In this document: positions 4,233 to 24,244 of the stretch, piece by piece
Position numbering within the stretch: position 1 is the stretch's first letter
How the letters are laid out: each line of letters opens with the position of its first letter
Source of the DNA: a virus
DNA: 29,156 nt
Reading direction: 5' to 3' (one strand)
IMG/VR virus record: IMGVR_UViG_3300031952_005190
Location: 1-29,156 of that record
Program-made: the position numbers and the translations under genes
The notes under the pieces: model-generated
Database searches by the model: none
What the model was told of the DNA's origin: nothing
The model's input: the letters and a program-made list of their open reading frames with translations, nothing else

Positions 4233-4841
4233 ATGTCGGCTATCACAGCTGTACCCATCCCCTCTTCTACCCTCACCAAGAACCCGCTCGACGGCTACGT
4301 CCTCGGGCGCATCGATTTCCGGGCACGGCACTTGGCCCGGACCCTCGGCCTCTCGGACGAGGAGCGGGACGACGTCCGTCACGACATGACGGTCGAGGTC
4401 CTGAAGGCCGCCCGGCGGTTCGACCCCGCCCAGGCCACCTGGCACACGTTCGTCTGCCGGGTTCTGAACCGCTTCACCAGGCAGTACGGCCGCGACGAGG
4501 GCGTCCGGCGCAAGCACGAGGTCGCCCCTCCTGCGTGCGACGCGGCGACGGACGGCGATTCGGCCGCGTCGGTCTTCGACTCGGTGCCGGACCAGCACGA
4601 CGACCTCGGCGACCTCGAACGGCGGCTCGACACGCAGGCCGTCCTGGCGTCCCTGCCTTGGCGGCTGCGGAAGGTCTGTGAACTCCTGAAGCACAAGTCC
4701 CCGCCCGAGGTCGCCGCCGCGCTGGGCATCCACCGCAGCGCGATCTACCCCCTGATTGCCCGTGCCCGCCGCCATTTCGCGGCCGCGGGACTCGATATTT
4801 CAGAAACCGGCGCGGCAAATTGCGACCATCCGCAGATGTAG
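4233..4841 (+). CDS. Sigma-70-like (ECF-type) phage regulator
   Basis: A 202-residue protein with the two-domain plan of small sigma factors. Residues about 20-90 resemble region 2 (YVLGRIDFRARHLARTLGL, DDVRHDMTVEVLKAARRFDP, TFVCRVLNRFTRQYGR). Residues about 139-190 resemble the region 4 helix-turn-helix (LPWRLRKVCELLKHKSPPEV, AAALGIHRSAIYPLIARARR). The domains are joined by an Asp-rich linker. The start at 4233 has AGGAG eight bases upstream; an open frame extends further upstream but lacks such a site. Sigma-like proteins redirect RNA polymerase, and here it would likely drive phage operons. The last 32 bases of its coding sequence belong to a 40-bp repeat found again before the head operon. 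It could instead be a late transcription activator without full sigma activity. Confidence 0.75.
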   Translation: MSAITAVPIPSSTLTKNPLDGYVLGRIDFRARHLARTLGLSDEERDDVRHDMTVEVLKAARRFDPAQATWHTFVCRVLNRFTRQYGRDEGVRRKHEVAPPACDAATDGDSAASVFDSVPDQHDDLGDLERRLDTQAVLASLPWRLRKVCELLKHKSPPEVAAALGIHRSAIYPLIARARRHFAAAGLDISETGAANCDHPQM

Positions 4842-4849
4842 TGGGCAGC
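4810..4849 (+). promoter_or_regulatory. 40-bp repeat, copy 1 (candidate phage promoter)
   Basis: This segment matches 24205-24244 at 32 of 40 positions with no gap. Two blocks are invariant: GCGCGGCAAA, and TCCGCAGATGTAGTGGG nine bases later. It spans the end of the sigma-like gene and lies just before the recombination/replication operon, whose first ATG is at 4870. The two-block layout and position suggest a promoter read by the phage's own sigma-like protein. That role is inferred. Confidence 0.55.
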
Positions 4850-4869
4850 CAGCACACGCGAGGTGAGAC

Positions 4870-5679
4870 ATGGACGACATCCACATCGACCTGGACGTCC
4901 TCGGCGTCGAAACCGAGGGAGCCTACCACGCCAAGGCCGGCGAGTACCTGTCCAGCCACCAACTCCTGGACTTCATGAAGTGCCCGTGGCTGCACCACAA
5001 GAAGGCGAGCGGCCTCCTGGAGGACAGGGACTCGCCGGCCTACCTCGTCGGCCGGGCGGCCCACGTGCGCATCCTCGAAGGCCGCGACGCCTACGAGGCC
5101 CGGTTCGCCCTCGGCGGCCCAATCAACGAGAAGACCGGCCGGCCCTACGGGGCCAACACGAAGGCCTTCGCCGAGTGGGCCGTGGCCCAGGGCAAGCCGG
5201 TCCTCAGCCAGGACCAGGTCGACCTCATCGAGCAGATGGCCAGCGGCGTGGCGATGAACGACGAGGCGGTGGACCTGCTGCTCTACGGCCGGGCCGAGGG
5301 GGTCGTCCGGGCGCCGTACCGTGACACGCCGTGCCAGATCCGCATCGATTGGACCCACCCTCACCGCGGCATCGTCGACCTCAAGACCTGCGACGAGCTG
5401 GACTGGTTCGAGGCCGACGCCCGGCGCTACCGCTACGCCAACCAGATGGCGTTCTACCAGTCGGTCCTGGCCGTGGCGATCGGCGAGGCCGTGCCTGTCC
5501 ACATCGTGGCCGTGGAGAAGCGCGAGCCGTTCCGTTGCGGCGTCTGGCGCGTGAGCGACGACGCCCTGGCCGTGGCCCGCCAGGTGAACGAGGCGGCCAT
5601 CCGGCGCCTCAAGGCCTGCCGCGAGGTGGGCCGCTGGCCGACCGGCTACGAGGCGGTCCGCATCCTGGACGTGGCGTAG
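4870..5679 (+). CDS. RecE/Cas4-like PD-(D/E)XK exonuclease (DUF3799-like)
   Basis: A 269-residue protein with the signature of phage RecB-family exonucleases that resect double-stranded DNA for single-strand annealing recombination. The visible motifs are GRAAHVRILEG (residues 61-71, the helix with conserved His), RIDW (158-161, Asp160), IVDLKT (168-173, the D-L-K core that binds metal) and YANQMAFYQSV (189-199, the Q/Y motif). The length fits PDDEXK_1/DUF3799 proteins. The start at 4870 follows GAGGTGAG. It opens a long operon whose next products (AAA ATPase, DUF669 protein) are the usual companions of such nucleases. An annealing protein of the RecT/Erf type is not recognisable, so the ATPase/DUF669 pair may fill that role. 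Confidence 0.82.
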   Translation: MDDIHIDLDVLGVETEGAYHAKAGEYLSSHQLLDFMKCPWLHHKKASGLLEDRDSPAYLVGRAAHVRILEGRDAYEARFALGGPINEKTGRPYGANTKAFAEWAVAQGKPVLSQDQVDLIEQMASGVAMNDEAVDLLLYGRAEGVVRAPYRDTPCQIRIDWTHPHRGIVDLKTCDELDWFEADARRYRYANQMAFYQSVLAVAIGEAVPVHIVAVEKREPFRCGVWRVSDDALAVARQVNEAAIRRLKACREVGRWPTGYEAVRILDVA

Positions 5680-5689
5680 GGCAGGTCCC

Positions 5690-5730
5690 GCGCCCGGGCG
5701 GGCGGCACGCACGGCCGTCCGCCCGGGCGC
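5690..5730 (+). terminator. Strong GC hairpin between nuclease and ATPase genes
   Basis: GCGCCCGGGCGG (5690-5701) pairs perfectly with CCGCCCGGGCGC (5719-5730). Five further pairs, one of them G-U, continue inward to a 7-base loop, giving about 17 bp of stem. It is followed by CTTCCTCGG rather than a T-run, so it could be an attenuator, an mRNA-stabilising or processing hairpin, or a weak terminator inside the operon. Confidence 0.6.
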
Positions 5731-5774
5731 CTTCCTCGGAACATGAACCCGTAACCCAGCAGAAAGGAACCGTG

Positions 5775-6563
5775 ATGAGCCTCCTGAAACAGATTCACAG
5801 CGGCCGACGCCCGTCGCCGCCCCGCCTGATGCTCTACGGCACCGAGGGGATCGGCAAGTCGACCACCGCCGCCGGCGCCCCGAAACCCATCTTCATCCCG
5901 ACCGAGGACGGCCTTGACCAGATCGACTGCGACTCGTTCCCCCTGGCCGCCGCCCTGGCGGACGTCGAGGCGGCCCTGGGGGTGCTGGCCAACGAGCCCC
6001 ACGGCTACGAGACCGTCGTCCTCGACTCGTGCGACTGGCTCGAGCGCCTCATCTGGGACGCCCTGTGCCAGCAGTACGGCGTCTCCTGCGTCGAGAAGGT
6101 CGACGGCGGCTACGCCCGGGGCTACACGCACGCCCTGACCCACTGGCGGCGCATCCTGGACGGCCTCGGCACCCTCCGGACCCGGCGCGGGATGTGCGTC
6201 ATTCTGGTGGCGCACGCGAAGGTCGAGAAGTTCGAGGACCCCGAGCACGCCGCCTACGACCGCTACAGCCCCCGCCTGCACAAGCACGCCACCGCCCTCC
6301 TCACCGAGTGGGCCGACGCCGTCCTCTTCGCCACCCGCAAGATCATCACCCAGACCGAGGAGGGCGGCTTCGGCCGCGAGCGGACCATCGCCGCGGGCCT
6401 CGGTGCGGACGGAGGCGAACGCATCCTCCGCTGCGTCGGGAGCCCGGCCTGCGTGGCGAAGAACCGGTACGGCCTGCCGGCCGAACTGCCCCTTTCGTGG
6501 CCTGCCCTCATGCAGGCCCTCGTCAACGACCCCAACACCAGCACCAACGGCAAGGAGATCTGA
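5775..6563 (+). CDS. Phage AAA ATPase (AAA_24 / RecA-like NTP-binding)
   Basis: A 262-residue nucleotide-binding protein of the AAA_24 type that commonly accompanies phage recombination nucleases and DUF669 proteins. The Walker A motif is GTEGIGKST (residues 22-30) and a Walker B strand is TVVLDSCDW (80-88). A sensor-like strand MCVILVAHAKVEKF follows near 140-155, as in RecA/Sak4-type proteins. The start at 5775 has AAAGGAA upstream (about 5763-5769). By analogy with Sak4, an ATP-dependent single-strand annealing or strand-exchange role on phage DNA is likely, but that is inference. The product should be cytoplasmic. It is separated from the nuclease gene by the 5690-5730 hairpin and from the next gene by only three bases. 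Confidence 0.82.
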   Translation: MSLLKQIHSGRRPSPPRLMLYGTEGIGKSTTAAGAPKPIFIPTEDGLDQIDCDSFPLAAALADVEAALGVLANEPHGYETVVLDSCDWLERLIWDALCQQYGVSCVEKVDGGYARGYTHALTHWRRILDGLGTLRTRRGMCVILVAHAKVEKFEDPEHAAYDRYSPRLHKHATALLTEWADAVLFATRKIITQTEEGGFGRERTIAAGLGADGGERILRCVGSPACVAKNRYGLPAELPLSWPALMQALVNDPNTSTNGKEI

Positions 6564-6566
6564 CCC

Positions 6567-7025
6567 GTGGCGAACCTGAACGGATTCGATGCGAACACCG
6601 TGGAACCGAGCACCCCCTTCGACCCGGTCCCGGCCGGGAAGTACCTGGCGGCCGTCACCGGCAGCCAGATGAAGCCCACCAAGTCGGGCGACGGCAGTTA
6701 CCTGGAGCTCGAGTTCACCATCCTCGAGGGTCCCTGCAAGGGCCGGAAGGTCTGGGACCGGCTGTGCCTGGTCCACACGAACCAGCAGACCGTGAAGATT
6801 GCCCGCGCGAACCTGTCGGCCCTCTGCCGGGCGGTCGGCGTCATGCAGCCGAAGGACTCGGTCGAGCTTCACAACCTGCCGCTCCTCGTGACCGTGAAGT
6901 GCAAGAAGCGCGAGGACACCGGCGACCTCGCGAACGAGGTCAAGGGGTACGCCAGGAAGGAGGCCGCTGCCGGGCAGCCGCAGCAGGCCCCGGCCGGCGA
7001 CAACACGCCGCCGTGGAAGCGCTGA
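6567..7025 (+). CDS. DUF669 family protein
   Basis: A 152-residue DUF669 protein, starting with GTG at 6567 and preceded by AAGGAG inside the end of the upstream gene. DUF669 proteins occur beside phage AAA/Sak4-like ATPases and nucleases, and are thought to act with single-stranded DNA during recombination. The sequence fits: N-terminal FDPVPAGKYLAAVTGSQMKP, then LELEFTILEGPCKGRKVWDR (about 52-71), a strand and loop typical of OB-like folds. A long helix-rich segment with ARANLSALCRAVGV follows. The C-terminal tail is flexible and ends PPWKR, the acidic/proline-type tail position used by SSB-like proteins, though it is basic here. An SSB-like role is likely but unproven. Confidence 0.8.
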   Translation: MANLNGFDANTVEPSTPFDPVPAGKYLAAVTGSQMKPTKSGDGSYLELEFTILEGPCKGRKVWDRLCLVHTNQQTVKIARANLSALCRAVGVMQPKDSVELHNLPLLVTVKCKKREDTGDLANEVKGYARKEAAAGQPQQAPAGDNTPPWKR

Positions 7026-7039
7026 GGGAGGCGTAGGCC

Positions 7040-7240
7040 GTGGCGGTCAACTGCGAAATGTGCGGGAGCGCCCTGGCCAACCGGAAGAACCGGTACTGCC
7101 CGGAATGCACGAAGATCGTGCGCCGCCGGATGCGCGAGTCCGGTTACCTCCAGAGCGCCTACGTGCAGCCCTACTTCAGCGACGAACGGGGGCGTAAGGG
7201 CATGCGCGACACGCGAGTCCTGGGAGGGGTGCCCCACTGA
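7040..7240 (+). CDS. Small zinc-ribbon protein
   Basis: A 66-residue protein starting at GTG 7040 with GAGGGAGG just upstream. Two CxxC pairs, CEMC (5-8) and CPEC (20-23), make a compact treble-clef or zinc-ribbon at the N-terminus, followed by a basic helix (KIVRRRMRE) and an unstructured tail. A nucleic-acid-binding accessory role in the recombination operon is plausible. Its stop overlaps the RusA start by one base (TGATG at 7238-7242), so the two are probably coupled. No named family is recognised. Confidence 0.65.
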   Translation: MAVNCEMCGSALANRKNRYCPECTKIVRRRMRESGYLQSAYVQPYFSDERGRKGMRDTRVLGGVPH

Positions 7241-7638
7241 TGACCACGTTGCTTCCCTGGCCACCCAGCATGAACCACTACTGGCGCCGCGTGGGGCCGC
7301 GGACGCTGATATCCCGGGAGGGCCGGACGTTCCGCACGAGCGTCTGCGCCCTCCTGGGCGCGGGCGGGCCGAGGAGACCCCCAGCCGGCGGCCGCGTCGC
7401 CTTGGCGATGGAGGCCTTCCCGCCGGACCGGCGGCGCCGTGACCTCGACAATCTCCTGAAGCCAACACTGGACGCCCTTCAGCACGCCGGGGTGTACGAG
7501 GATGACAGCCAAATCGACCTCCTCGTGGTCCGCCGGCGCAGACCCGACAGGCCGCACGGGCACGTTGCCATCCGCGTCGATCCGTTGCCGCTCGGGCGAT
7601 GCCCGCTCTGCGGCGCTCCCATGCACAGCGAGAACTGA
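7240..7638 (+). CDS. rusA: RusA-family Holliday junction resolvase
   Basis: A 132-residue RusA-type endonuclease, which cuts four-way DNA junctions during recombination or before packaging. The diagnostic N-terminal PPSMNHYWR (residues 8-16) is present. The catalytic stretch RRRDLDNLLKPTLDALQ (about 65-81) supplies the paired Asp residues (68, 70) and Lys74, and GVYEDDSQID (84-93) gives the third acidic site. An unusual feature is a C-terminal CPLCGAPM extension (about 120-127), a lone CxxC knuckle beyond the normal RusA end. The start overlaps the zinc-ribbon stop. Family assignment is strong. Confidence 0.92.
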   Translation: MTTLLPWPPSMNHYWRRVGPRTLISREGRTFRTSVCALLGAGGPRRPPAGGRVALAMEAFPPDRRRRDLDNLLKPTLDALQHAGVYEDDSQIDLLVVRRRRPDRPHGHVAIRVDPLPLGRCPLCGAPMHSEN

Positions 7639-7641
7639 ACC

Positions 7642-8271
7642 ATGACCGCCACCAGGCGAATCTACATCGCGGGGCCGATGACCGGCCACGAGGACCACAA
7701 CTTCCCCGCCTTCCACGCGGCCGCCGACCGGTTCCGCCAGGCCGGGTGGGAGGTGGCCAACCCGGCCGAGAACTTCGGCGGCCGGACGGACCTTCCGCGC
7801 GAGACGTACCTGCGGGCCGACGTGGCCCTCCTCTCGCGGTGCGATGCCATGGCGATGCTCCCCGGCTGGGAACGGTCGCACGGTGCGACGCTTGAGGTCG
7901 TCCTTGCTGTCGAACTTGGGCTCCGGTTCTTCGACGCACGCTCCGGCATGCAGATGGAGGAGCCGCCCAGGACGACCTACAGCGCCGAGAACGGTACGGC
8001 CTCCGTCCTCGACACGGCCAAGCGCATCACGGCGGGTTCGCGGCGGGCCGACTACGGACACCCGGCCGACGACTTCGCCCGGACGGCCGCCATGTGGACG
8101 GGCATCCTGGCGGACCGTCTGTGCGAGGGCGAGGCCATCACGGCGATGGACGTCCCGCTGTGCCTGATCGCCGTCAAACTCGCCCGCCAGGTCCACCGGC
8201 ACAAGCGCGACAACCTGGTGGACATCGCCGGCTACGCCCGGACGGCGTCGATGGTCGCCGGGGACGAATGA
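7642..8271 (+). CDS. DUF4406-DUF6378 fusion protein
   Basis: A 209-residue protein in which two phage domains appear fused. Residues 1-100 match DUF4406, which resembles nucleoside 2-deoxyribosyltransferases: RIYIAGPMTG (6-15), NFPAFHAAADRFRQAGWEV, then the glycine/histidine region LPGWERSHGATLEV. Residues about 115-209 look like DUF6378, an all-helical domain with RRADYGHPADDFARTAAMW and LIAVKLARQVHRHKRDNLVD. Both domains are found in phage genomes and are suspected to act on nucleotides, but the substrate is unknown. The start at 7642 lies three bases after RusA. Its stop overlaps the next start as ATGA. The 10741 gene also carries a helical nucleotide-associated domain, hinting at altered nucleotide pools. 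Confidence 0.75.
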   Translation: MTATRRIYIAGPMTGHEDHNFPAFHAAADRFRQAGWEVANPAENFGGRTDLPRETYLRADVALLSRCDAMAMLPGWERSHGATLEVVLAVELGLRFFDARSGMQMEEPPRTTYSAENGTASVLDTAKRITAGSRRADYGHPADDFARTAAMWTGILADRLCEGEAITAMDVPLCLIAVKLARQVHRHKRDNLVDIAGYARTASMVAGDE

Positions 8272-9041
8272 TGGCCAAGGCCCACTCGAAGACCATCCTG
8301 GCCTTCGGCGACGTCCACGTCCCCCACCAGCACGACGGGGCCGTGGAGGTATTCTGCCGCGCGGCCGAACGCCTGCGGCCGGACCTCATCGTGTGCCTGG
8401 GCGACCTCCTGGACTGCGGCCAGTTCTCCCTGCACCCGCCGACGTTCGGGATGCCGGAGACGGAGTACGCGGACGACCTGGCCGCGGCCAACGCCCTCCT
8501 GGACCGCCTGGCGGCCGTCTGCGGGCGCCTCGTCGTCATCGAGGGGAACCACGAGTACCGCCTCGACCGGTGGGCCGCTGCGACGGCCGAGGGGCGGGGC
8601 GCCTACTCGCTGCTCGCGCCGCGCATACGGCTCACCCAGAGGCGGTCGCGCTGCACCTACGTGCGTTACGGCTCGGCCGGCGGGCGGTATCCGCACTACC
8701 GGCTGAACGGCCGGGTCATCGCGGTGCACGGCTGGTCCTACGCGCGCAACGCCACCAAAGAGCACCTGGCCATCAGCCAAGGGAAGAGCGTCATCCACGG
8801 TCACACCCACCGGGCCGACGCGAGCATCGTCCAGGACGTCTGGTCGCCCGGCAAGGTCGTCCAGGCCCGAAGCGCCGGCTGCCTCTGCAAGACCATCCCC
8901 CTCTACGGCACCGGGCGGCCCGTCGAGTGGGTCAACGCCTTCATCCTCGGGTATCTGGGCCGCCGCAGCGACACGCTCTACACCATCCCGGTCCTGGACG
9001 GCCGGTGCATCCTGCCCGACGGGGCGGAGGTGCGGGCATGA
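8268..9041 (+). CDS. Calcineurin-like metallophosphoesterase
   Basis: A 257-residue metallophosphoesterase with the full metal-binding set: GDVH (residues 14-17), GDLLD (45-49), GNHE (93-96) and the late HGHTH (about 180-185). These residues hold two metal ions that hydrolyse phosphoesters. In phages such enzymes may act on nucleic-acid ends, nucleotides or RNA, and the substrate cannot be read here. Two adjacent in-frame starts exist (8268 and 8271). I chose 8268 because it overlaps the preceding stop as ATGA, the pattern used throughout this operon. The gene is coupled in the same way to the downstream helicase. Family call is strong, role open. Confidence 0.85.
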   Translation: MMAKAHSKTILAFGDVHVPHQHDGAVEVFCRAAERLRPDLIVCLGDLLDCGQFSLHPPTFGMPETEYADDLAAANALLDRLAAVCGRLVVIEGNHEYRLDRWAAATAEGRGAYSLLAPRIRLTQRRSRCTYVRYGSAGGRYPHYRLNGRVIAVHGWSYARNATKEHLAISQGKSVIHGHTHRADASIVQDVWSPGKVVQARSAGCLCKTIPLYGTGRPVEWVNAFILGYLGRRSDTLYTIPVLDGRCILPDGAEVRA

Positions 9042-10729
9042 TCCGCCTGCGCCCCTACCAGGAGGAGGCCGTCGCGGCGGTCTACGACCACCTGCGCCGC
9101 CGGGACGACAATCCGTGCGTCGTGCTGCCCACGGCCAGCGGGAAGACCCCCGTGATGGCCGCGATGTGCCGCGACACCGTCGAACGCTGGGGTGGGCGGG
9201 TGCTCGTCCTGGCACACGTGAAGGAACTGCTGGAGCAGGCCGTCGAGAAACTCCACGCCATGGCGCCGGACCTCTGGATGCGGGTCGGCGTCTACTCGGC
9301 GGGCCTCGGGAGCCGCGACACCGAGCATCCCATCATCGTCGCCGGCATCCAGAGCGTCTACCGCCGCGCGGCCGAACTCGACCGGTTCGACCTGATCCTT
9401 CTGGATGAAGCGCACATGCTGCCGCCCGACGGCGAGGGCATGTACCGGACGTTCCTCGCCGAGGCGAAGGTCGTGAACCCCCAGGTGCGCCTCGTGGGCC
9501 TGACGGCTACGCCGTACCGCATGACCACCGGGATGATCTGCGGCCCGGAGAACCTTCTGAACGAGGTCTGCTACGAGGTGGGCGTTCGGGAACTCATCGT
9601 CCAGGGCTACCTCTGCCCCCTGAGGACGAAGGCCGGCAAGCAGAAGGTCGACACGGGGGGCCTGCACATCAGGGGCGGCGAGTTCGTCGCCGGGGAGGTC
9701 GAGGCCCTGATGGACGACGAGGCCTTGGTGCGCGACGCCTGCGCCGAGATCGTGGCCCACACGCAGGACCGCCACTCGGTCCTCATCTTCGCGGCCGGCA
9801 TCCAGCACGCCCAGCACGTCCAGCGCGTCCTAGGCGAGATGGGGGCCGAGTGCGGGTTCGTCTGCGGCGACACGCCGTCCGCGGAGCGGGCCGCGGCGCT
9901 CGCGCGGTTCCGCGAGGGGGCCCTCAAGTACCTCGTGAACGTCAACGTTCTCACCACCGGCTTCGACGCCCCCAACATCGACTGCGTGGCGCTCCTGCGG
10001 CCGACCAACTCGCCGGGACTTTTCTATCAGTGCTGTGGTCGGGGCTTCCGCATCGACGCAGGCAAAGCAGACTGCCTCATCCTCGACTTCGGCGGGAACA
10101 TCCTGCGGCACGGGCCGGTCGATGCGCTCCAGGTCAAAGAGCACGCCGGCGGCTCCGGCGAGGCGCCGGCCAAGGAGTGCCCCCAGTGCCAGGCGGTCAT
10201 CCACGCCGCCTACGCGACCTGCCCGGAGTGCGGATACGAGTTCCCGCCGCCCGAGCGCGAGAAGCACGACCGCCGGGCCAGCGACGCGGCCATCCTCTCG
10301 GGGCAGGCCACGGTCACCGAGTATGACGTCCGCGAGGTCTCCTACGGCGTCCACGCGAAGCACGACGCCCCGCCGGACGCCCCCAAGACCATGCGCGTGC
10401 AGTATCGCCTCGGCTGGAACACCTGGCGCAGCGAATGGGTCTGCTTCGAGCACGCCGGCTGGGCCCGCGCGAGGGCGGAAGCCTGGTGGCGCCGGCGCAC
10501 CGACCGGCCGGTCCCTGACACGGCCGCCGACGCTGTCGCGGTTGCCACCGATGGGGAGCTTGCCGAACCTGTCGCCATCACCATCCGGAGCGTGGCCGGC
10601 GAGAAGTACGACCAGATCGTCGGCTACCGCTTCGCCGGTGAACCGCCGCCGGACGCCGCGTTCGCACCCGAGCCTTCCGTTGAAGCCGTCGACGACTTGG
10701 ACCTCGACGAGGCGGCCGTCCCGTTCTGA
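9038..10729 (+). CDS. SF2 DEAD/DEAH-box helicase with C-terminal zinc ribbon
   Basis: A 563-residue superfamily 2 helicase. The motifs in order are RLRPYQEEAV (Q-like, 3-12), PTASGKT (Walker A, 31-37), DEAH (123-126), LTATP (motif III), TTGFDAPN (motif V) and QCCGRGFR (motif VI). A zinc ribbon follows the helicase core (CPQCQ, then CPECGYEF), and the protein ends with an acidic tail. This plan resembles RadD/YejH-type and phage UvsW-like helicases, which remodel recombination and replication intermediates. That fits its place after the nuclease, RusA and phosphoesterase genes. Motif VI carries a Cys-Cys where many relatives have other residues. The start overlaps the upstream stop as ATGA. 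Confidence 0.9.
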   Translation: MIRLRPYQEEAVAAVYDHLRRRDDNPCVVLPTASGKTPVMAAMCRDTVERWGGRVLVLAHVKELLEQAVEKLHAMAPDLWMRVGVYSAGLGSRDTEHPIIVAGIQSVYRRAAELDRFDLILLDEAHMLPPDGEGMYRTFLAEAKVVNPQVRLVGLTATPYRMTTGMICGPENLLNEVCYEVGVRELIVQGYLCPLRTKAGKQKVDTGGLHIRGGEFVAGEVEALMDDEALVRDACAEIVAHTQDRHSVLIFAAGIQHAQHVQRVLGEMGAECGFVCGDTPSAERAAALARFREGALKYLVNVNVLTTGFDAPNIDCVALLRPTNSPGLFYQCCGRGFRIDAGKADCLILDFGGNILRHGPVDALQVKEHAGGSGEAPAKECPQCQAVIHAAYATCPECGYEFPPPEREKHDRRASDAAILSGQATVTEYDVREVSYGVHAKHDAPPDAPKTMRVQYRLGWNTWRSEWVCFEHAGWARARAEAWWRRRTDRPVPDTAADAVAVATDGELAEPVAITIRSVAGEKYDQIVGYRFAGEPPPDAAFAPEPSVEAVDDLDLDEAAVPF

Positions 10730-10740
10730 AAGGGAATCCC

Positions 10741-13987: not shown

Positions 13988-14001
13988 CCCCACCCGACTG
14001 C

Positions 14002-14408: not shown

Positions 14409-14504
14409 ATGAAACAGGGCTGAGGCCGTGAGGATGCTTCCTCGCGGGACGGCCGGGGTAGAATCGGGCCGTCGAGGGGTCGCGAGCGAGGGAGGAGGTG
14501 GGTC

Positions 14505-15566
14505 ATGGCTCAGCCGGTGCGGGCGTTGGTGGACGGGGTGGACGAGTTCATCGGGATCGACCACCACAAGAAGCGATGCCAGGTGATGGTCAAGGACCGC
14601 CAGGGCCACGTGCTTCGGCGGGGGAACATCCCGACGCAGCGAGAGGCCTTGGAGCGGTTCCTGGGGGATCGCAACGGGGCCGTGCGGCTGGCGGTGTTCG
14701 AGGCCGGGCCGCGGTACCGGCCGCTGTACCGGTGGCTCGCGGGCCTGGCGGACCAGGTGGTGATGGCGAATCCGGGCCGGCTGAAGATCATCTCGGAGAC
14801 GGCGTACAAGGACGACGCGATCGACGCGGAGAAGTTGGCGGACTTCGGGATGCTGGGGATGGTGCCGGAGGCGTACGTGTGCGGCGACGAGGCGTGGGAC
14901 CGCCGGCAAGGGCTTCGGCAGCGGGCGGCGTTGGTGAAGATGCAGACGTCGGTGAAAAACCGGGTGCACGCCCTGGTGGACCAGCACCCGAACGCGCTTC
15001 CGGCGCGGCCGGAGGCGACGGACCTGTTCGGGTCGCTGGGGATGCAGTGGCTGCGTGAGGTCGTGCTGCCGGAGACGGACCGCGGGCGGCTGGACCAACT
15101 GCTGGAGGTGTACACGTTCCTCCATGATCAGGTACGGCAAAGCGATGCCCAGGTGCGGCAGATGGTGAAGGCGGACGTGCGGTGCGGGTACCTGGCGACG
15201 ATGCCGGGGATCGGAGACTTCTTCGCGGCGCTCATCCTGGCCGAGGTGGACGACATCCGGCGGTTCCCGACCTCGAAGGACTTCGTGTCGTACACGGGGC
15301 TGGTGCCGGGGCGGGACCGCTCCGACGAGGTGGACAAGCCGCGGCGGATGCACAAGCGAGGGAGCAAGTGGCTGCGGTGGGCGCTGGTAGAGGCGGCCAT
15401 CCCGGCGACGCGGTCGAATCTGGCCCTGAAGAACCTCTACGACCGCGTGGTACGCAAGAAGGGCCCGAAGGCGGGGCCGAACGTGGCGAAGGTGGCGGTG
15501 GCGCGGAAACTGGCAGAGATCGTGTACCGGATCCTGGTGGAGGAACGCCCCTATGAGGTCCGGTAG
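14505..15566 (+). CDS. IS110-family DEDD transposase
   Basis: A 353-residue transposase (recombinase) of the IS110 family. The N-terminal RuvC-like DEDD domain has Asp19 (FIGIDHHKK), Glu66 (AVFEAGPRY) and the YKDDAIDAEKLADF pair (Asp104, Asp107). A coiled middle region follows. The C-terminal Transposase_20 domain has MPGIGDFFAALILAEV (233-248), FVSYTGLVPGRDRSDEV with the probable nucleophile Ser273, and KRGSKWLRWALVEAA. It starts at 14505 behind GGAGGAGG. IS110 enzymes use a bridge RNA from the element to choose target and donor, and a candidate for that RNA lies just downstream. All key residues are intact, so the element may be active. Confidence 0.93.
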   Translation: MAQPVRALVDGVDEFIGIDHHKKRCQVMVKDRQGHVLRRGNIPTQREALERFLGDRNGAVRLAVFEAGPRYRPLYRWLAGLADQVVMANPGRLKIISETAYKDDAIDAEKLADFGMLGMVPEAYVCGDEAWDRRQGLRQRAALVKMQTSVKNRVHALVDQHPNALPARPEATDLFGSLGMQWLREVVLPETDRGRLDQLLEVYTFLHDQVRQSDAQVRQMVKADVRCGYLATMPGIGDFFAALILAEVDDIRRFPTSKDFVSYTGLVPGRDRSDEVDKPRRMHKRGSKWLRWALVEAAIPATRSNLALKNLYDRVVRKKGPKAGPNVAKVAVARKLAEIVYRILVEERPYEVR

Positions 15567-15639
15567 CGTGCGGTCAAGCCGCAGCAGGCTTGCCCTGCCA
15601 AGATGGAGAAAACTCGGACATCCGGCCGCCCTGATGTCC

Positions 15640-15850: not shown

Positions 15851-15896
15851 GGAAACGGGCGACCCCTTGACACGCCCTGTTTCATGGGAGGCGGAC

Positions 15897-18174: not shown

Positions 18175-18182
18175 GGTCCACG

Positions 18183-18401
18183 ATGGAGAACCTGGCCCAG
18201 GATGCAAAGGCGACGCTCAACCCCTCGGCCCTCTCCCTGGCCGACGCCGCGCGGATCCTCTCGGCCGCCGGCGGCCAGCGGGTGACGATCGAGATGCTCG
18301 AGGAGGACGTCGCCGCCGGCGCCCCGACCAACGCCGACGGCACCCTCAACCTCCTGCACTACGCCGCCTGGCTGAACGCGAAGGACGCGCATGGCGATTG
18401 A
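18183..18401 (+). CDS. Small HTH-like protein, possible small-terminase component
   Basis: A 72-residue protein starting at ATG 18183 behind GAGG (18173-18176). Its second half reads VTIEMLEEDVAAGAPTNADG, then LNLLHYAAWLNAK. The last part resembles the N-terminal region of the terminase that follows (AGYRVGDGRHVDLVRYVAWL). It overlaps the terminase start by 11 bases. A helical DNA-recognition module like those in small terminase subunits would fit both its place and this similarity. I recognise no named family, so that role is inference. Confidence 0.6.
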   Translation: MENLAQDAKATLNPSALSLADAARILSAAGGQRVTIEMLEEDVAAGAPTNADGTLNLLHYAAWLNAKDAHGD

Positions 18402-20694
18402 CACCCGCAACCTGAAGCCGTCGGAACTGGTGCGGCTCCTCAACTCGACGCCGCTGGGCGCGGTCACGAGCGCCGCGCGCCTCTCGCGCCAGATGAACGA
18501 GGCGGGGTACCGCGTCGGCGACGGCCGGCACGTGGACCTGGTGCGGTACGTGGCGTGGCTCGCGCACCGGCGGCGGCTGCCCCGGCCGGCGCCCCTCACC
18601 TACGACGAAAAGAAGGCCAGGCAGGCCGAGCGGAACCGCCGCGAGACGGCCGCCGCCCAGGACATCGGCCCGCTGCCGGACGTCGCGGACATGGAACGGC
18701 GGCAGCAGGCGTGCGCCGGGTTCCGGTTCTTCTCGGAGACGTACTTCCCCAAGGCGTTCTACCGCGCGTGGTCCGACGACCACCTGCGGGTCATCGCCAA
18801 GATCGAGCGGGCGGTGCTCCAGGGCGGCCTCTTCGCCTTCGCCATGCCGCGCGGGAGCGGGAAGACGACGCTGGCGCGCCTGGCGGGCCTGTGGGCCATC
18901 CTGACGGGGGCGCGGGCCTACGTCTGCCTCATCGGCGGGTCGCAGGACCGTGCGCTGGACCTCTTGGCGCCCCTCAAGAAGGAAATCCTCGGCAACGCCC
19001 TGCTCCGTGCCGACTTCCCCGAGGCCATCTATCCCCTATGGATGCTGCACAACAATGCCCGCCGGCAGATCGGCCAGCACATCGGCGGCGAGCCGACCTA
19101 CGTCACCTGGGCGGCCGACAAACTCGTCTTCCCCACGGTCGTGGGCGACACACTCTCGCCGTCGCTCCGGAGCGCTGGTCTGGAGCAGTCGCCCGCCAGC
19201 GGTTCAATCATCACCGTCACCAGCCTCGACTCGAACATGCGCGGCCAGCAGCACACGAAAATGGGCGGACAGGTCGTGCGGCCGTCGCTGGTCATCCTCG
19301 ACGACCCGCAGACCCGGGAATCCGCCCGGTCGCCGACGCAGACGAAGTACCGCATGGAACTCCTCAATGGCGACGTCCTCGGCATGGCGGGGCCGGGCGA
19401 GAAGATCGCCGCGTTCCTCACGTGCACGAAGATGTACGACGGCGACCTCGCGGACCAGGTCCTCGACCTGGAGAAGAACCCCGAGTGGCAGGGCGAATGC
19501 ACGAAGATGGTGTACGCCTTCCCCACGGATACGAAACTCTGGGACGAGTACGCCCAGGTCCGGGCGTCGGGCCTGCGGGCGGGCCGGGGCATCAAGGACG
19601 CCACAGCGTTCTACCGCCAGCACCGTGAGGAGATGGACGCCGGCGCCCGGGTCGCCTGGCCCGACCGGTTCAACAAGGACGAACTGTCGGCCCTCCAACA
19701 CGCGATGAACCTCAAACTCCGCGACGAGGAGGCCTTCCGGGCCGAGTACCAGAACGAGCCGGTCGCCGAGCAGATGGCCGAGAACGTCCTTACGCCCGAC
19801 GACGTGGCCGCGCGCTTCAGCGGCCGCCGGCGCGGGGAGGCGCCGCTGGCGTGTTCCACGGTCACGATGTTCGTCGACGTGCACGACAAGGTCCTCTTCT
19901 ACTGCGTGGCGGCCTGGCAGGAAAACTTCACCGGCTTCGTCGTCGATTACGGCACACTGCCCGACCAGAAACGCCCCTGGTTCACGCTCGATAACGCCAC
20001 CCGCACCCTCGGCCGGACGTTCCCTGGCATGGGGACCGACGCCGCCATCCAGGCGGGCCTCGAGCGTCTGGTGGGTGAGTTCCTCGCCCGCGAGTGGCCC
20101 CGGACGGGCGGCGGCGTCCTCAGGATCGAGAGGTGCCTGGTGGACATGGGCTACAAGCCCGGCCTGGTCGCCGCCGTCAAGCACAAGGTCGGCGGCGCGG
20201 CGATGGTGCTCTCGAAGGGCGTTGGTATCCGCGCCGGGTCCAAGCCCATGACCACCTATCGCCGCCGCCCCGGCGAGGTCCACGGGCACCACTGGTACAT
20301 GCCGAACGTCCGGGGCACGCAGGAGTTCCCGCACGTGGCGGTGGACGTGAACTGGTGGAAGACGTTCGTCCACGCGCGACTGTCGATCGCGCCGGGCGAT
20401 CCGAGCGCGCTGACGCTCTTCGGCAGGAGCGCTGACGAGCATCGCCTGTTCTCTGAGCACATCGCCGGCTCGGAGACTTGGACGCTGACGCACGGCCACG
20501 GGCGGGACGTCCAGGAGTGGAAACTCCGCCCCACGCGGCCGGACAACCACTGGCTGGACTGCCTGGTGGGCTGCGCGGTGGCGGCGTCGATGTGCGGCGT
20601 GGCGCTGGAGGGGATGGACAGGAAGGTGGTCAAGGACCGCGGCGGCCAGCGGCTGAGGCTCTCGGACCTCCAGAGGGGGCGGCGGCATGAGTAA
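18391..20694 (+). CDS. Phage terminase large subunit
   Basis: A 767-residue packaging motor. An N-terminal helical region (1-65) resembles the small protein encoded just upstream. The ATPase has Walker A MPRGSGKTT (152-160) and Walker B LVILDD (300-305), followed by a coupling-like motif AAFLTCTKM (340-348). The RNase H-like nuclease has acidic residues at VTMFVDVHD (Asp496), RCLVDMGYK (Asp585) and NHWLDCLVG (Asp723). The domain plan is close to the lambda gpA-like group. It cuts concatemeric DNA and pumps it into the prohead through the portal. The start at 18391 lies inside the end of the 18183 gene. Unusually, 3.8 kb of other genes separate it from the portal gene. Confidence 0.92.
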   Translation: MAIDTRNLKPSELVRLLNSTPLGAVTSAARLSRQMNEAGYRVGDGRHVDLVRYVAWLAHRRRLPRPAPLTYDEKKARQAERNRRETAAAQDIGPLPDVADMERRQQACAGFRFFSETYFPKAFYRAWSDDHLRVIAKIERAVLQGGLFAFAMPRGSGKTTLARLAGLWAILTGARAYVCLIGGSQDRALDLLAPLKKEILGNALLRADFPEAIYPLWMLHNNARRQIGQHIGGEPTYVTWAADKLVFPTVVGDTLSPSLRSAGLEQSPASGSIITVTSLDSNMRGQQHTKMGGQVVRPSLVILDDPQTRESARSPTQTKYRMELLNGDVLGMAGPGEKIAAFLTCTKMYDGDLADQVLDLEKNPEWQGECTKMVYAFPTDTKLWDEYAQVRASGLRAGRGIKDATAFYRQHREEMDAGARVAWPDRFNKDELSALQHAMNLKLRDEEAFRAEYQNEPVAEQMAENVLTPDDVAARFSGRRRGEAPLACSTVTMFVDVHDKVLFYCVAAWQENFTGFVVDYGTLPDQKRPWFTLDNATRTLGRTFPGMGTDAAIQAGLERLVGEFLAREWPRTGGGVLRIERCLVDMGYKPGLVAAVKHKVGGAAMVLSKGVGIRAGSKPMTTYRRRPGEVHGHHWYMPNVRGTQEFPHVAVDVNWWKTFVHARLSIAPGDPSALTLFGRSADEHRLFSEHIAGSETWTLTHGHGRDVQEWKLRPTRPDNHWLDCLVGCAVAASMCGVALEGMDRKVVKDRGGQRLRLSDLQRGRRHE

Positions 20695-20737
20695 CGTTCC
20701 TGACGGCGGCGCCCCGCTGCGGCTGTCGGACCTTCAG
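20650..20737 (+). repeat. 24-bp direct repeat encoding RLSDLQ twice
   Basis: Positions 20650-20673 and 20714-20737 match at 20 of 24 bases, 64 bases apart. One ends the terminase gene and the other begins the next gene. Both are read in the frame giving LRLSDLQ. Confidence 0.6.
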
Positions 20738-20887
20738 CATCGGGACGACCGGGGCCTGGTGTGTCGCAAGTGCGGAGGCCGGCACTTCTACACCCTCTAC
20801 ACGCGCCCCAAGCCTGGCTGCATCGTGCGCCTGAAGGAGTGTCGCCACTGCGGCGCGCGGATGGTCACGCGCGAGCGGGCGGGTTGA
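20687..20887 (+). CDS. Small zinc-ribbon protein after terminase
   Basis: A 66-residue protein with CRKC (26-29) and CRHC (52-55) pairs making a zinc ribbon with the segments GRHFYTLYTRPK and IVRLKECRHCG, reminiscent of Ogr/NrdR-type ribbons. Its N-terminus carries LRLSDLQ, also present at the end of the terminase, from a 24-bp imperfect DNA repeat. It overlaps the terminase end by 8 bases and is probably cotranslated. A nucleic-acid-binding or late regulatory role is possible. Family unknown. Confidence 0.7.
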   Translation: MSNVPDGGAPLRLSDLQHRDDRGLVCRKCGGRHFYTLYTRPKPGCIVRLKECRHCGARMVTRERAG

Positions 20888-20942
20888 AGGCCGCCGTAAG
20901 GCTTCTGCTAGGCCCCCAGGAAATTATGCATCTTCCTCCATT

Positions 20943-20979
20943 ATTCGCCTTGCTTCAGGGCGAAAAGCATGCCCTGATC
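20943..20979 (+). promoter_or_regulatory. 37-bp intergenic element, copy A
   Basis: This element, from ATTCGCCTTGC to GCCCTGATC, recurs at 22583-22619 with the same length and spacing. It includes a perfect 7-bp inverted repeat TCAGGGC (20955-20961) / GCCCTGA (20971-20977) with a 9-base loop. It lies about 40 bases before the ATG at 21019, as copy B does before 22662. An operator, promoter-linked site or mRNA leader hairpin is likely. Confidence 0.55.
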
Positions 20980-21018
20980 CACGTGGAAGGGCGAACACGA
21001 AACGCAAAGGAGAGCCAG

Positions 21019-21213
21019 ATGAAGACCAGGCCCGAGACCTACGAGTGGCTGATGGCGAAGACGCGGCTGGGCCGCCGCATCGAGCGGCTGGGATGGCGGC
21101 GGCTGGCCCGCATCTACTGGGCATCCGGCGCGAAGGTCCGCGGGGCGATTCGCGGCGAGGCCCGCCGGTGCGGGTACACGCCGAGCACCATCCTGGCCAT
21201 CCATGCCAGGTAA
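21019..21213 (+). CDS. Small basic hypothetical protein
   Basis: A 64-residue, strongly basic and helical protein starting at ATG 21019 behind AAAGGAG. It contains YEWLMAKTRLGRRIERLGWR, then IYWASGAKVRGAIRGEARRC, with many Arg residues that suggest nucleic-acid contact. I do not recognise the family. It is the first of a row of small genes placed between terminase and portal, and copy A of a repeated 37-bp element lies directly upstream. Confidence 0.6.
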   Translation: MKTRPETYEWLMAKTRLGRRIERLGWRRLARIYWASGAKVRGAIRGEARRCGYTPSTILAIHAR

Positions 21214-21231
21214 CCGAAAGGAGCGAGAACC

Positions 21232-21501
21232 ATGAGAACGACGCGAATCGACATCGAGGGGCGGCGTGGCCGGTACGCCACGGTCAGCCGCCGCGAGGGC
21301 GCGAGGGTCATCGAGATCGTGGTCCTCACGCCCGACCGGCCGGGGCCGCTGGGCGGCGGCGAGACCTTCAACGCCGACGCCACCAACGAGGACAGCCAGC
21401 GCTACGCGGCCGCGCTTCTCCAGAAGCGGCTCGATGGCTACCAGGGCACCGCCGGCGACGTGGCCGACTACCTGCGGGTCATCCAGAACTTCGCCGACTG
21501 A
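21232..21501 (+). CDS. Small hypothetical protein
   Basis: An 89-residue protein with AAAGGAG nine or so bases before ATG 21232. The first half looks like beta strands (TTRIDIEGRRGRYATVSRRE, then VIEIVVLTPDRPGP). The second half is helical (DSQRYAAALLQKRLDGYQG, then DVADYLRVIQNFAD). There is no signal peptide, membrane segment or metal motif. No family recognised; likely cytoplasmic and expressed with its neighbours. Confidence 0.6.
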   Translation: MRTTRIDIEGRRGRYATVSRREGARVIEIVVLTPDRPGPLGGGETFNADATNEDSQRYAAALLQKRLDGYQGTAGDVADYLRVIQNFAD

Positions 21502-21525
21502 GGCGACCAGCACAAGGAGCCAACG

Positions 21526-21795
21526 ATGGAGACGCGAAGCGGCAAGGTGATTCGGCTGGCGGATGGGACGGTTTGGGGCATTGGCGATGCGGCGTTCTGG
21601 TTCGGCCGCGACGGGCACATTCGCCAGGGCATGGTGGTCGACGTGTGGAGCGACGAGCACGGCGCCTACCTCTGCATCCGCGTCAAGGGCGACCCCCACC
21701 CGAAGGTCATCCCGGCTTGGAGCGGCATCAAGACGCTCGAGGCGGCCACGAAGGCCAGGGCGGCGGCGGTGGCCAAGGGCCTGGTCGACGCATAG
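21526..21795 (+). CDS. Small beta-rich hypothetical protein
   Basis: An 89-residue protein with AAGGAG before ATG 21526. Strand-rich segments (SGKVIRLADGTVWGIGDAAF, QGMVVDVWSDEHGAYLCIRV) suggest a small barrel, followed by a C-terminal Ala/Lys helix (LEAATKARAAAVAKGLVDA). The IRLADGTVW stretch resembles ARLANGTRV near the start of the 22320 product, so the two may share a fold. Function unknown. Confidence 0.6.
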   Translation: METRSGKVIRLADGTVWGIGDAAFWFGRDGHIRQGMVVDVWSDEHGAYLCIRVKGDPHPKVIPAWSGIKTLEAATKARAAAVAKGLVDA

Positions 21796-21823
21796 GACGG
21801 CAACCCAACGAAAGGAGCCTGCT

Positions 21824-22252
21824 ATGGGCACGGCGGCACGCAGAACCGAGAACGTGATGGGTAAGCGCCTGCGGGTGGGCGACGTGGTCATCCGGGGCGG
21901 GTACGAGTGGGTCATCGACCGGATCACCTTCGAGCCGGACTTCCCGCGCTACGCCTGCACCTGCCACTGGTCGGGCAACGGCCCGGACCCGCAGTTCTTC
22001 AACAACAACTTCGACACCGCTCAGCGGGACGACATCCCCTGGACGCGGGTGGTCAGGCCCCGGCCCCGGCGCCTGGTCTGCCGCACCGAGGTCCCCGCGT
22101 GGTACGCGACCCAGGCCGGCCGCAAGGTGGAACTCCGCCAGACGGGCACCGACGAGGTCCTGGCAACCATCCGTCCGCCTGCCGCCTGGGGCGACGCGTG
22201 GGGCTGGAACCTGATCGACGGCGGGGTCCTGGTCGAACGCACGAGCAGGTAG
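21824..22252 (+). CDS. Hypothetical protein
   Basis: A 142-residue protein with AAAGGAG before ATG 21824. The first part has RLRVGDVVIRGGYEWVIDRI and YACTCHWSGNGPDPQFFNNN, a strand-rich region like small SH3-type barrels. Residues about 95-140 (EVPAWYATQAGRKVELRQTG, then WGWNLIDGGVLVERTSR) form a second strand-rich part. No known family recognised. It is followed by a perfect 18-bp palindrome. Confidence 0.58.
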   Translation: MGTAARRTENVMGKRLRVGDVVIRGGYEWVIDRITFEPDFPRYACTCHWSGNGPDPQFFNNNFDTAQRDDIPWTRVVRPRPRRLVCRTEVPAWYATQAGRKVELRQTGTDEVLATIRPPAAWGDAWGWNLIDGGVLVERTSR

Positions 22253-22267
22253 GAGGTGCCCGGCGAC

Positions 22268-22285
22268 GGGTCGCCTAGGCGACCC
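22268..22285. promoter_or_regulatory. Perfect 18-bp palindrome
   Basis: GGGTCGCCTAGGCGACCC is identical to its reverse complement and sits in the gap between two small genes. It could be a dimer-protein operator, or a tight hairpin in the transcript. There is no T-run, so termination is less likely. Confidence 0.6.
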
Positions 22286-22319
22286 CCAGCCCGGCAATTC
22301 CGCCGCAGGGAGACATGCG

Positions 22320-22556
22320 ATGGTCACGAAAGCCAAACGCCCCGCCCGCCTGGCCAACGGGACGCGGGTCCACGTCAAGAGCGACCACTTCGCTGAGGAG
22401 TGCGACGGCATCGTCACCAAGGCCGAGTACGACGCCGGGTGGCTGTACCGCGTCCGGCCGACGCGCGGCGACGCGCCGTCCGTCGCCAGGAACAAGGAGG
22501 CCGAGTACTGGTTCTGGGACTTCGAGGTCGCGCCCCTGGGCGGCAGAAAGGGGTAG
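22320..22556 (+). CDS. Small hypothetical protein, possible SH3-like fold
   Basis: A 78-residue protein starting at ATG 22320 with AGGGAG upstream. It reads ARLANGTRVHVKSDHFAEEC, GIVTKAEYDAGWLYRVRPT, then YWFWDFEVAPLG. The alternation of Val/Thr strands with Gly/Asp turns and the closing WFWDFEV strand are typical of SH3- or KOW-like barrels, but no family is identified. It may be a small nucleic-acid- or protein-binding accessory factor. Confidence 0.55.
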   Translation: MVTKAKRPARLANGTRVHVKSDHFAEECDGIVTKAEYDAGWLYRVRPTRGDAPSVARNKEAEYWFWDFEVAPLGGRKG

Positions 22557-22567
22557 GCGGGCGGCGG

Positions 22568-22581
22568 CCGGAATATTCCGG
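22568..22581. promoter_or_regulatory. 14-bp palindrome upstream of element copy B
   Basis: CCGGAATATTCCGG is a perfect palindrome ending two bases before copy B of the 37-bp element and 80 bases before ATG 22662. It has an AT core in GC-rich surroundings and may be an operator. Confidence 0.45.
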
Positions 22582-22582
22582 A

Positions 22583-22619
22583 ATCCGCCTTGCCTGGGGG
22601 CGATTCCCATGCCCTGATC
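22583..22619 (+). promoter_or_regulatory. 37-bp intergenic element, copy B
   Basis: This segment corresponds to 20943-20979 without gaps. CGCCTTGC, GGGCGA and CATGCCCTGATC are conserved. The inverted repeat is weakened here, with GGGC/GCCC retained. It precedes the 22662 gene as copy A precedes the 21019 gene, and both are followed by an AAAGGAG ribosome site. Confidence 0.55.
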
Positions 22620-22661
22620 AGCATAGACGCATGGGCATGCGAACCAGGAAAGGAGATGACG

Positions 22662-23201
22662 ATGGCAAAGGTTCTAACGATTCGCGAGGCGAACCGCCTG
22701 GCCAGGGGCCGGGCGACGGTGACGGTCGACCCCGAGGACGGCCGCCTGTGGCAGGTCGAACGGCCCGGCAGCGTCGAGGCCCACGAGCCGATGACGCGCG
22801 AGGCGTGGCTGGCCTTCCTCAAGACGGGCATGGCCGCGCCGACGAAAGACGGGCAGACCGCCGCCGAGGTCTACGCCGAGCGCCGGCGCGACGTCGAGCG
22901 CCTGCTGGCCTGGCTCGGCCAGGAGCTCCGCAAGCACGAGAAGCAGGCCAAGGCCGATCCCAGGAACTGGGGCGCGGCGGGCGACCTGTACCGGGTCCGC
23001 AGCGGCCTCCTGGAGATCCTCGCCGGCCTGCGCGGCGTCGAGGTCGAGAGCATCGAGGACCACCTCGACACCGACGTGCCCAAGGTCGCCGGGTGCCCGC
23101 GGTGCGGCGAGCGGTGCCTGGACAAGCTGGTCTGGCAGGACGACGGCGAGACGGTGCGGTGCGCCACCTGCGGCAAGCTGTACGCGCCGCCCACGAGGTA
23201 G
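22662..23201 (+). CDS. Hypothetical protein with C-terminal zinc ribbon
   Basis: A 179-residue protein. The ATG at 22662 is chosen over the in-frame ATG at 22656 because AGGAG (22651-22655) is best spaced for it. Residues about 1-50 are mixed (LTIREANRLARGRATVTVDP). Residues about 60-130 are helical and charged (TAAEVYAERRRDVERLLAWL, GQELRKHEKQAKAD). The C-terminus is a zinc ribbon with CPRCGERC and CATCG (about 145-170). It could bind DNA or another phage protein. Family not recognised. Copy B of the 37-bp element lies immediately upstream. Confidence 0.6.
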   Translation: MAKVLTIREANRLARGRATVTVDPEDGRLWQVERPGSVEAHEPMTREAWLAFLKTGMAAPTKDGQTAAEVYAERRRDVERLLAWLGQELRKHEKQAKADPRNWGAAGDLYRVRSGLLEILAGLRGVEVESIEDHLDTDVPKVAGCPRCGERCLDKLVWQDDGETVRCATCGKLYAPPTR

Positions 23202-23210
23202 GAGGTTGCC

Positions 23211-24101
23211 ATGTTGACCCTGAAACAGAGACAGGAGCGGGCCGCACGTCGCGCCGCGCGGATCGCGGCAACGCACGAGGCCATCCGGCAAGCGGCCCCG
23301 GAACACGGTGAAGCACAGAGCGAAGGGAGCACGGTCATGAAGAAGAACGAGGTGAAGGTCGGCAGCCAGTACGTTGCCAAGGTGTCGGGCAAGTTGGCCC
23401 AGGTCCGTATCGACCGCGAGAACCCGCACGGCGGGTGGGACGCGACGAACCTGGCCACGAAGAAGGCCGTCCGCATCAAGTCCGCCCAGCGGCTGCGGGC
23501 GCCGGCCGGACTGACCAAGGCCGAGGTCCAGGCCGCCAAGGCCGCCGTGGCGGCCCACGTTGGCGCAGGGGCCAAACCGGCCGCCGGGTCAGCCAAGGAT
23601 ACCAAGGCCCTGCCCGCGGCCGCCGGGGGCGAACCCGCCAACCCCCTGGAAGCCCACTACCGGGGGCAGAAGGACGCCGCCAAGGCGGAGAAGGCCGCCA
23701 AGGTCGCTGCGTGGCGGAAGGAGGTGGCCGCCAAGGCATCCAAGCCCGACCCGGAACTCGACAAGGCCATCAAGGACGCCGACGCCAAGGGCCGCCAGAA
23801 GAAGGCCAAGGCGAAGGCCGAGAGGAAGCCCGGCTGCCTCGACGCCGCCGTCCGCGTCCTGCGGGAGGCCGGCAAGCCCATGGGGTGCCAGGACATCGTG
23901 AAGGCGGCCTTGGCGAAGGGGTACTGGCAGACGAAGGGCGCGACGCCCGCGGCCACGCTTTATGCCGCGATCATCCGCGAGTGCGCCGCGAAGGGCAAGG
24001 ACGCCCGGTTCCGCCGCGCTGAGGTCAAGGAGACGAAGGACGGCAAGGCCGTCAGCCTGCGGGGCTACTTCGAACTGACCGACGCCGCCAGGGGCCGGTA
24101 G
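23211..24101 (+). CDS. HARE-HTH domain protein
   Basis: A 296-residue protein. The C-terminal part (about 208-292) matches the HARE-HTH winged-helix pattern: LDAAVRVLREAGKPMGCQDI, KAALAKGYWQTKGATPAATL, then AAIIRECAAKGKDARFRRAE. HARE-HTH domains have been proposed to recognise DNA or its modification state. Before it lies a strand-rich N-terminal region (EVKVGSQYVAKVSGKLAQVR) and a long Ala/Lys linker (about 120-200). Two in-frame starts have ribosome sites: 23211 (AGGAGG, 23200-23205) and 23337 (GAAGGGAG). The latter begins right at the folded region, so either or both may be used. The phage also encodes DNA-modifying enzymes, so a link is tempting but unproven. Confidence 0.72.
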   Translation: MLTLKQRQERAARRAARIAATHEAIRQAAPEHGEAQSEGSTVMKKNEVKVGSQYVAKVSGKLAQVRIDRENPHGGWDATNLATKKAVRIKSAQRLRAPAGLTKAEVQAAKAAVAAHVGAGAKPAAGSAKDTKALPAAAGGEPANPLEAHYRGQKDAAKAEKAAKVAAWRKEVAAKASKPDPELDKAIKDADAKGRQKKAKAKAERKPGCLDAAVRVLREAGKPMGCQDIVKAALAKGYWQTKGATPAATLYAAIIRECAAKGKDARFRRAEVKETKDGKAVSLRGYFELTDAARGR

Positions 24102-24120
24102 GAGCAACCCGCCTCCGCAC

Positions 24121-24149
24121 CACGCCCGGGCGCGTCCCGCCTGGGCGTG
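24121..24149 (+). terminator. Terminator-like hairpin after the small-gene cassette
   Basis: CACGCCC (24121-24127) pairs with GGGCGTG (24143-24149). One G-U and GGCG/CGCC inside give about 12 bp of stem around a CGTCC loop, followed by TCTTCGG. It stands 20 bases after the HARE-HTH gene and before the head-operon control region. It lacks a long T-run, so strength is uncertain. Confidence 0.55.
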
Positions 24150-24204
24150 TCTTCGGCCCCAGCCTGCCCGCCCCGAAAATTGTTACACATCTGGAACGCC
24201 TCCC

Positions 24205-24244
24205 GCGCGGCAAACCCGTCCCTTCCGCAGATGTAGTGGGTAGC
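24205..24244 (+). promoter_or_regulatory. 40-bp repeat, copy 2 (candidate late promoter)
   Basis: This is the second copy of the 4810-4849 element (32 of 40 identical). It sits in a 247-base gene-free stretch between a terminator-like hairpin and the head operon. The first copy overlaps a coding sequence but this one does not, so conservation here points to a DNA-level role such as a promoter for the phage sigma-like protein. The frame matching copy 1 also ends PQM-stop, so a gene remnant is a less likely alternative. Confidence 0.55.

Follow-up and report, generated by a model that had tools for sequence, protein, structure and literature searches.

What would read a 40-bp element that stands once before the recombination operon and once before the portal/capsid operon of a virus, next to a gene for a sigma-like protein? 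The window, by which we mean the whole IMG/VR record analyzed here (29,156 bases), carries two such copies. Comparison with relatives makes it very probable that they are promoters for the ECF-like sigma which the phage itself encodes, and that sigma-promoter pairs of this kind have co-diversified across a large group of Planctomycetota phages.

Two copies of a two-block element

Counted by hand, copy 1 (from 4810, GCGCGGCAAATTGCGACCATCCGCAGATGTAGTGGGCAGC) and copy 2 (from 24205, GCGCGGCAAACCCGTCCCTTCCGCAGATGTAGTGGGTAGC) are identical at 32 of 40 positions. They have the structure that the original prediction had given them, with two blocks that are the same in both copies and a 9-base variable spacer, in which two bases match. 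Across the window, the two-block pattern has exactly these two occurrences, against none expected from 100 dinucleotide shuffles. The placement proposed for the copies, one before each operon with the first overlapping the 3' end of the sigma-like gene, is likewise as claimed (Table 1): copy 1 runs through the stop codon of the sigma-like ORF (TAG, 4839-4841), its second block ending 24 nt before the exonuclease ATG (4870), and copy 2 is noncoding, lying between a HARE-HTH ORF that ends at 24101 and the small ORF (ATG at 24349) that stands ahead of the portal gene. Less remains of the terminator-like hairpin said to precede copy 2, for which a 12-bp stem is present (24121-24132 pairing with 24138-24149) but no U-tract follows the stem, and a scan for intrinsic terminators around copy 2 found none. 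A scan of the same surroundings for housekeeping sigma-70 promoters returned no matches.

Elsewhere in the window, neither Pfam nor PHROG gives a match for the ORF ahead of the sigma gene (3723-4079), and transposase-like genes lie inside the record (14505-15566, PHROG 2199 transposase) and at its right end (27934-29028, IS630-like by eye).

Table 1. Coordinates of genes and candidate promoter elements in the window
Feature	Position	Strand	Basis or remark
Small gene at left record edge, serine recombinase	1..2081	+	Operon homologous to those of L016 and G046 (L220)
Predicted ECF-like sigma-70 family factor, 202 aa, regions 2 and 4	4233..4841	+	Pfam, PHROG 1740, PDB profiles, model
Type-A element, copy 1	4810..4849	+	Predicted promoter of the exonuclease/recombination operon; overlaps sigma 3' end
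Copy 1, -35-like block	4810-4819	+	Within type-A element
Copy 1, -10-like block	4829-4845	+	Within type-A element
Exonuclease VIII-like PD-(D/E)XK (DUF3799), first gene of recombination operon	4870..5679	+	Pfam, PHROG
Sak4-like ssDNA annealing protein, recombination operon	5775..6563	+	PHROG
Type-A element, copy 2	24205..24244	+	Predicted head-operon promoter; equivalents before portal gene in relatives
Type-B element, CACGCAAA-N-GCAAAAAGACAAAGGTGG, next after copy 2	24263..24304	+	Scores, sigma clade B
Small gene opening head operon (MADELDDAIRTNAEGP...)	24349..24546	+	Kept directly upstream of portal gene in relatives
Portal protein (lambda family)	24543..26024	+	Pfam
Major capsid protein (Phage_capsid_4 / Mu gpT-like domain)	25984..27876	+	Pfam

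An ECF-like sigma beside copy 1

The product of the gene beside copy 1 is, by its domain matches and its predicted fold, an ECF-like sigma. Taken alone, the window protein falls slightly short of the Pfam thresholds, matching Sigma70_r2 with an E value of 5.7e-05 (0.7 bits under the gathering score) and Sigma70_r4_2 with 3.5e-05 (1.9 bits under the cut-off); it matches PHROG 1740, "RNA polymerase sigma factor," at 7.9e-11. In an alignment of 30 family members, Sigma70_r2 is matched by 24 (best E 4.6e-09) and Sigma70_r4_2 by 10, and the family profile finds SigH, CnrH, FliA, and SigE in the PDB. The predicted model (pLDDT 83.8) consists of two helical domains and, between them, a linker of low confidence; the region 4 helices lie at 157-164/168-184, and the sigma-4 crystal structure 3hug aligns to it with a TMt of 0.70. 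The top Foldseek matches are the ECF sigmas SigE, SigH, SigL, and RpoE in RNAP complexes (best E 5.4e-05); their global TM is low (0.26-0.33), which we ascribe to the flexible linker. The protein thus shows what characterizes ECF (group IV) sigmas, namely region 2, region 4 without another large domain, and a two-domain fold, and the several lines of evidence agree on the sigma-like identity that had been proposed for the gene.

The element in relatives

Relatives were gathered through the linked exonuclease and portal genes (80 and 56 viral loci, respectively), in a set that includes near-identical phages and metagenome contigs, which can be chimeric. A protein search of IMG/VR with the single sigma sequence gave no matches, and searching the portal-derived contigs for the exonuclease linked almost none of them; a sigma HMM found 72 matches in the exonuclease and portal viral loci. 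The sigma gene adjoins the exonuclease in most viral loci, on the same or the opposite strand. Among bacterial genomes, it is those of Planctomycetota, chiefly Phycisphaerae, that carry the sigma-exonuclease pair; the sigma is present in 70 of 80 loci, and the complete chromosome CP087563 holds at least 11 such prophages. Judging by these homologues, the window is a phage whose relatives are Planctomycetota prophages, mostly of Phycisphaerae. Some phages have a second, divergent sigma homologue (L023, 5196-5834, - strand; L054, 7741-8487, + strand; L037, 1765-2439, - strand).

When each contig was compared with its own 200-220 bp stretch upstream of the exonuclease, the exonuclease-side element was found to recur in most phages about 250-370 bp before the portal gene, on the same strand and directly ahead of the small first gene of the head operon. 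Some relatives have a third copy, placed before the serine recombinase operon in L016 and G046/L220 and before the tyrosine integrase operon in G048/L212 and L204. The window starts inside a homologous serine-recombinase operon, so a third copy, missed in the original prediction, is to be expected here too and probably lies just beyond the left end of the record.

From 49 aligned cores, of which a few are probably chance matches, the consensus of the window's type of element (type A) reads gcGcgaCA-N-TGCAGATgTAGagg. An exact 17-mer scan of IMG/VR gave matches in unrelated contexts only. A degenerate pattern matched 23 IMG/VR stretches and, when reversed, 4; nearly all matches of the forward pattern lie ahead of exonuclease, head, or integrase genes. 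The element is restricted to phage loci, 12 of the 13 matches in a 7.4-Mb chromosome (at most 3 mismatches) falling within prophage loci or prophage-like remnants. Of 73 non-redundant regions upstream of head genes, 33 contain a recognized element type, compared with 1 of 73 after sequence reversal. A conserved element on the same strand upstream of several phage operons is what a regulon would present.

Element type tracks the sigma

A regulon should also change its element with its sigma, and this is what the relatives display. Element types were set by eye and by regex after inspection, and the regex left 56 of 128 elements untyped and 41 of 120 sigmas without a type; the main tests were therefore run on ungapped local scores without typing. 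At a score of 15 or more, the exonuclease-side stretch matched the portal side of the same phage in 28 of 39 phages, compared with 80 of 1,482 cross-phage comparisons. The mean own-match score was 20.5, against a permutation maximum of 13.5 and a cross-phage mean of 10.3. No strong own match was found in the other 11 phages (e.g., G056, G068, G071, G080, L243, L256, and L303), and the head operon of G056 is preceded by the element type of another clade.

Sharing between the two locations in different phages rises with sigma identity, from about 1% or fewer of the pairs below 30% to 100% at 70% or above. In a partial Mantel test, element and sigma similarity remained correlated given exonuclease identity (0.37; 0 of 2,000 permutations), while the partial correlation of element with exonuclease given sigma was 0.14. 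Pairs whose exonucleases are 82-87% identical and whose sigmas are less than 30% identical have no common element. L006 is a natural swap, with an exonuclease 94% identical to that of the window, a clade B sigma only 28% identical, and a type-B element. When seven regex-defined types were placed on a tree of 117 sigma sequences, six changes sufficed, which is the minimum. By these comparisons, the element follows the identity of the sigma rather than that of the neighboring genes. The scan of related phages that had been suggested as a check has, then, turned up type-specific elements before both operons, on the coding strand, that co-vary with the sigma protein.

Where the sigma gene is divergent, the -35 half of the element types concerned can be delimited only poorly. 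Three relatives with this arrangement (L073, L074, and L301) have direct repeats (ACAGGGTCACGCCAGTCACATATGACCCCACG...) between sigma and exonuclease that look operator- or iteron-like.

Promoter, operator, leader, or gene remnant

The same comparisons bear on what else the element might be. It could be an operator for a phage repressor or activator, an HTH protein or possibly the sigma-like protein acting as activator, with no promoter function, as might be suggested by several family members that fit generic HTH models in addition to region 4 of sigma and by a palindrome-like site close to the head element. We regard this as improbable: the protein has sigma region 2 besides region 4, the orientation of the element toward the downstream gene is constant, its two-block layout is of promoter-like length, and the dyad symmetry of type-A cores is no greater than in column-shuffled controls. 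The palindrome-like site itself (24182-24197, GTTACA-N4-TGKAAC), just upstream of the head-operon element, is a possible operator in its own right; the same site occurs in L090 and L097, where the latter has it in perfect form (GTTACACACCTGTAAC).

Even less probable is an action as leader RNA, whether as a put/nut-like antitermination site, an attenuator, or an RNA switch. Such a function would suit an element on the coding strand shortly ahead of genes, and some exonuclease-side type-D copies do lie within an inverted repeat. Yet the start codon of the exonuclease is just about 25 nt from the element, RNA folding of 49 type-A cores is on a par with that of shuffles (mean z 0.13), the portal copy of G050 has not retained the type-D inverted repeat, and the type of the element tracks the sigma protein. 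Models of type A as an RNA hairpin or as a dyad were dropped, there being no excess over shuffles or shuffled columns. The type-D repeat is seen in L014, L025, and L042 (e.g., CGTTTTCCCCTG...CAGGGGAAAACG), and it is the right arm that is missing in the G050 portal copy.

The original prediction had itself named a decayed second sigma-like gene, with copy 2 as its 3' end, as the alternative that might overturn it; despite the PQM-stop in both frames of the window, there is next to no chance of this, since three relatives (L007, L021, and L035) read the element at the sigma gene in another frame (ADVE... versus ...QM-stop), sigmas with other element types end before the tail, the model shows this tail as disordered (pLDDT 39-49), and many types have head-operon copies that stand without a sigma remnant. 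With the same bases read in two frames and other sigmas stopping earlier, it is the DNA that is conserved here, not a protein tail.

Proposed mechanism

Promoters for the phage's own sigma thus remain the preferred reading, and the two-part promoter that had been envisioned before the two operons gains support from position, strand, and co-variation. Host core RNA polymerase with the phage ECF-like sigma would recognize both 40-bp copies, so that production of the sigma would turn on the recombination/replication operon through copy 1 and the head operon through copy 2, and in relatives the integrase/excision operon as well. Sigma region 4 would read the left block as a -35 element (GCGCGRCA), and region 2 would read the TGCAGATGTAG block as a -10 element (GATGTAG), at a distance of about 15-17 nt. 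The same frame of two blocks seems to suit other types (e.g., GACAGTTTT...TATGTAATAAG). Binding of the sigma to the elements, the sites of transcription start, and the assignment of the blocks are what we infer from these patterns.

The locus had further been described as a self-contained transcription switch, and this holds in part: elements for the phage's own sigma stand before two operons, but none stands ahead of the sigma gene, as both copies in the window lie elsewhere. Expression of the sigma would therefore be controlled in some other way.

Across the family, sigma and promoters would diversify jointly into several largely non-overlapping specificities, of which a single host chromosome would have at least five or six; the sigma-promoter pairs of prophages that share a chromosome differ and are probably separate. 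If so, these phages offer a large natural series of sigma-promoter pairs, sequenced on both sides, and rules of promoter recognition might be drawn from it and from the natural swaps that it includes. The elements would predict each phage's sigma regulon straight from sequence, and it would become testable how the lytic programs of a dozen related prophages are kept apart within one chromosome.

Relation to known phage and cellular sigma factors

Phage sigmas that redirect host polymerase to phage operons are familiar from lytic phages, such as gp55 of T4 and gp28 of SPO1; these belong to other sigma subfamilies, with one specificity per phage. In Bacillus subtilis, the late operon of prophage PBSX is driven by Xpf. 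This protein (also Pcf), a group IV sigma of about 20 kDa that has no sigma regions other than 2 and 4, is tied to prophage induction (PMC10141391). By description, the sigma of the window is similar, being prophage-encoded, of like size, and with regions 2 and 4. Unlike Xpf, which serves one prophage and one late promoter, it would belong to a large co-diversifying set that addresses recombination, head, and some integrase operons, with several types per host.

Each subgroup of cellular ECF sigmas has -35/-10 promoters of its own, with little crosstalk to the others, and autoregulation is usual among these sigmas, although not universal (Rhodius et al. 2013, PMC3817407). The phage factors share with them the two-domain architecture and, as predicted here, type-specific promoters; they differ in that the sigma gene has no element ahead of it and that the regulon consists of phage operons.

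Among isolated phage records, the sole matches to the sigma are sigma-70-domain proteins of Wolbachia phage WO, a temperate phage, which are distant relatives (20-22% identity over 82-89% of the protein, E down to 2e-7) from a very different host. To our knowledge, control in Planctomycetota phages is almost unstudied. Our search, of limited literature coverage, found no work on sigma factors of these phages or on a co-diversified set of this kind, and what appears to be new here is this multi-type set of sigma-promoter pairs.

Tandem elements and mixed types

A second, different element, overlooked in the original prediction, stands directly downstream of copy 2. It is of type B, like the elements that precede the exonuclease in L006, L040, and L048, phages with sigmas of a separate clade, and it scores 21-23.5 against the exonuclease-upstream elements of G059/G066, compared with the cross-phage mean given above. 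Head-operon tandems occur in several combinations: A then B in the window and in L090/L198, C then A in L206, and B then A in L222. In CP087563, several types occur together in decayed regions resembling prophages, with no sigma gene within 16-kb stretches.

Such tandems may be the trace of replacement of the sigma cassette, or they may be a response to the sigmas of other phages. Extending the latter, head operons with tandem promoters and sigma-less remnants might also answer to the sigma of a co-resident or superinfecting phage, so that mostly insulated switches would be cross-linked; we offer this tentatively, as rather unlikely. Were it true, induction of one phage would switch on another or be exploited by it.

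Two of the sigma-less loci in CP087563, L327 and L328 (at about 3.006 and 3.039 Mb), hold tandem arrays of several types with no sigma gene in 16 kb. They look like decayed prophages or satellites, and downstream of the array L328 has retained a primase-like and ParB-like/methylase operon.
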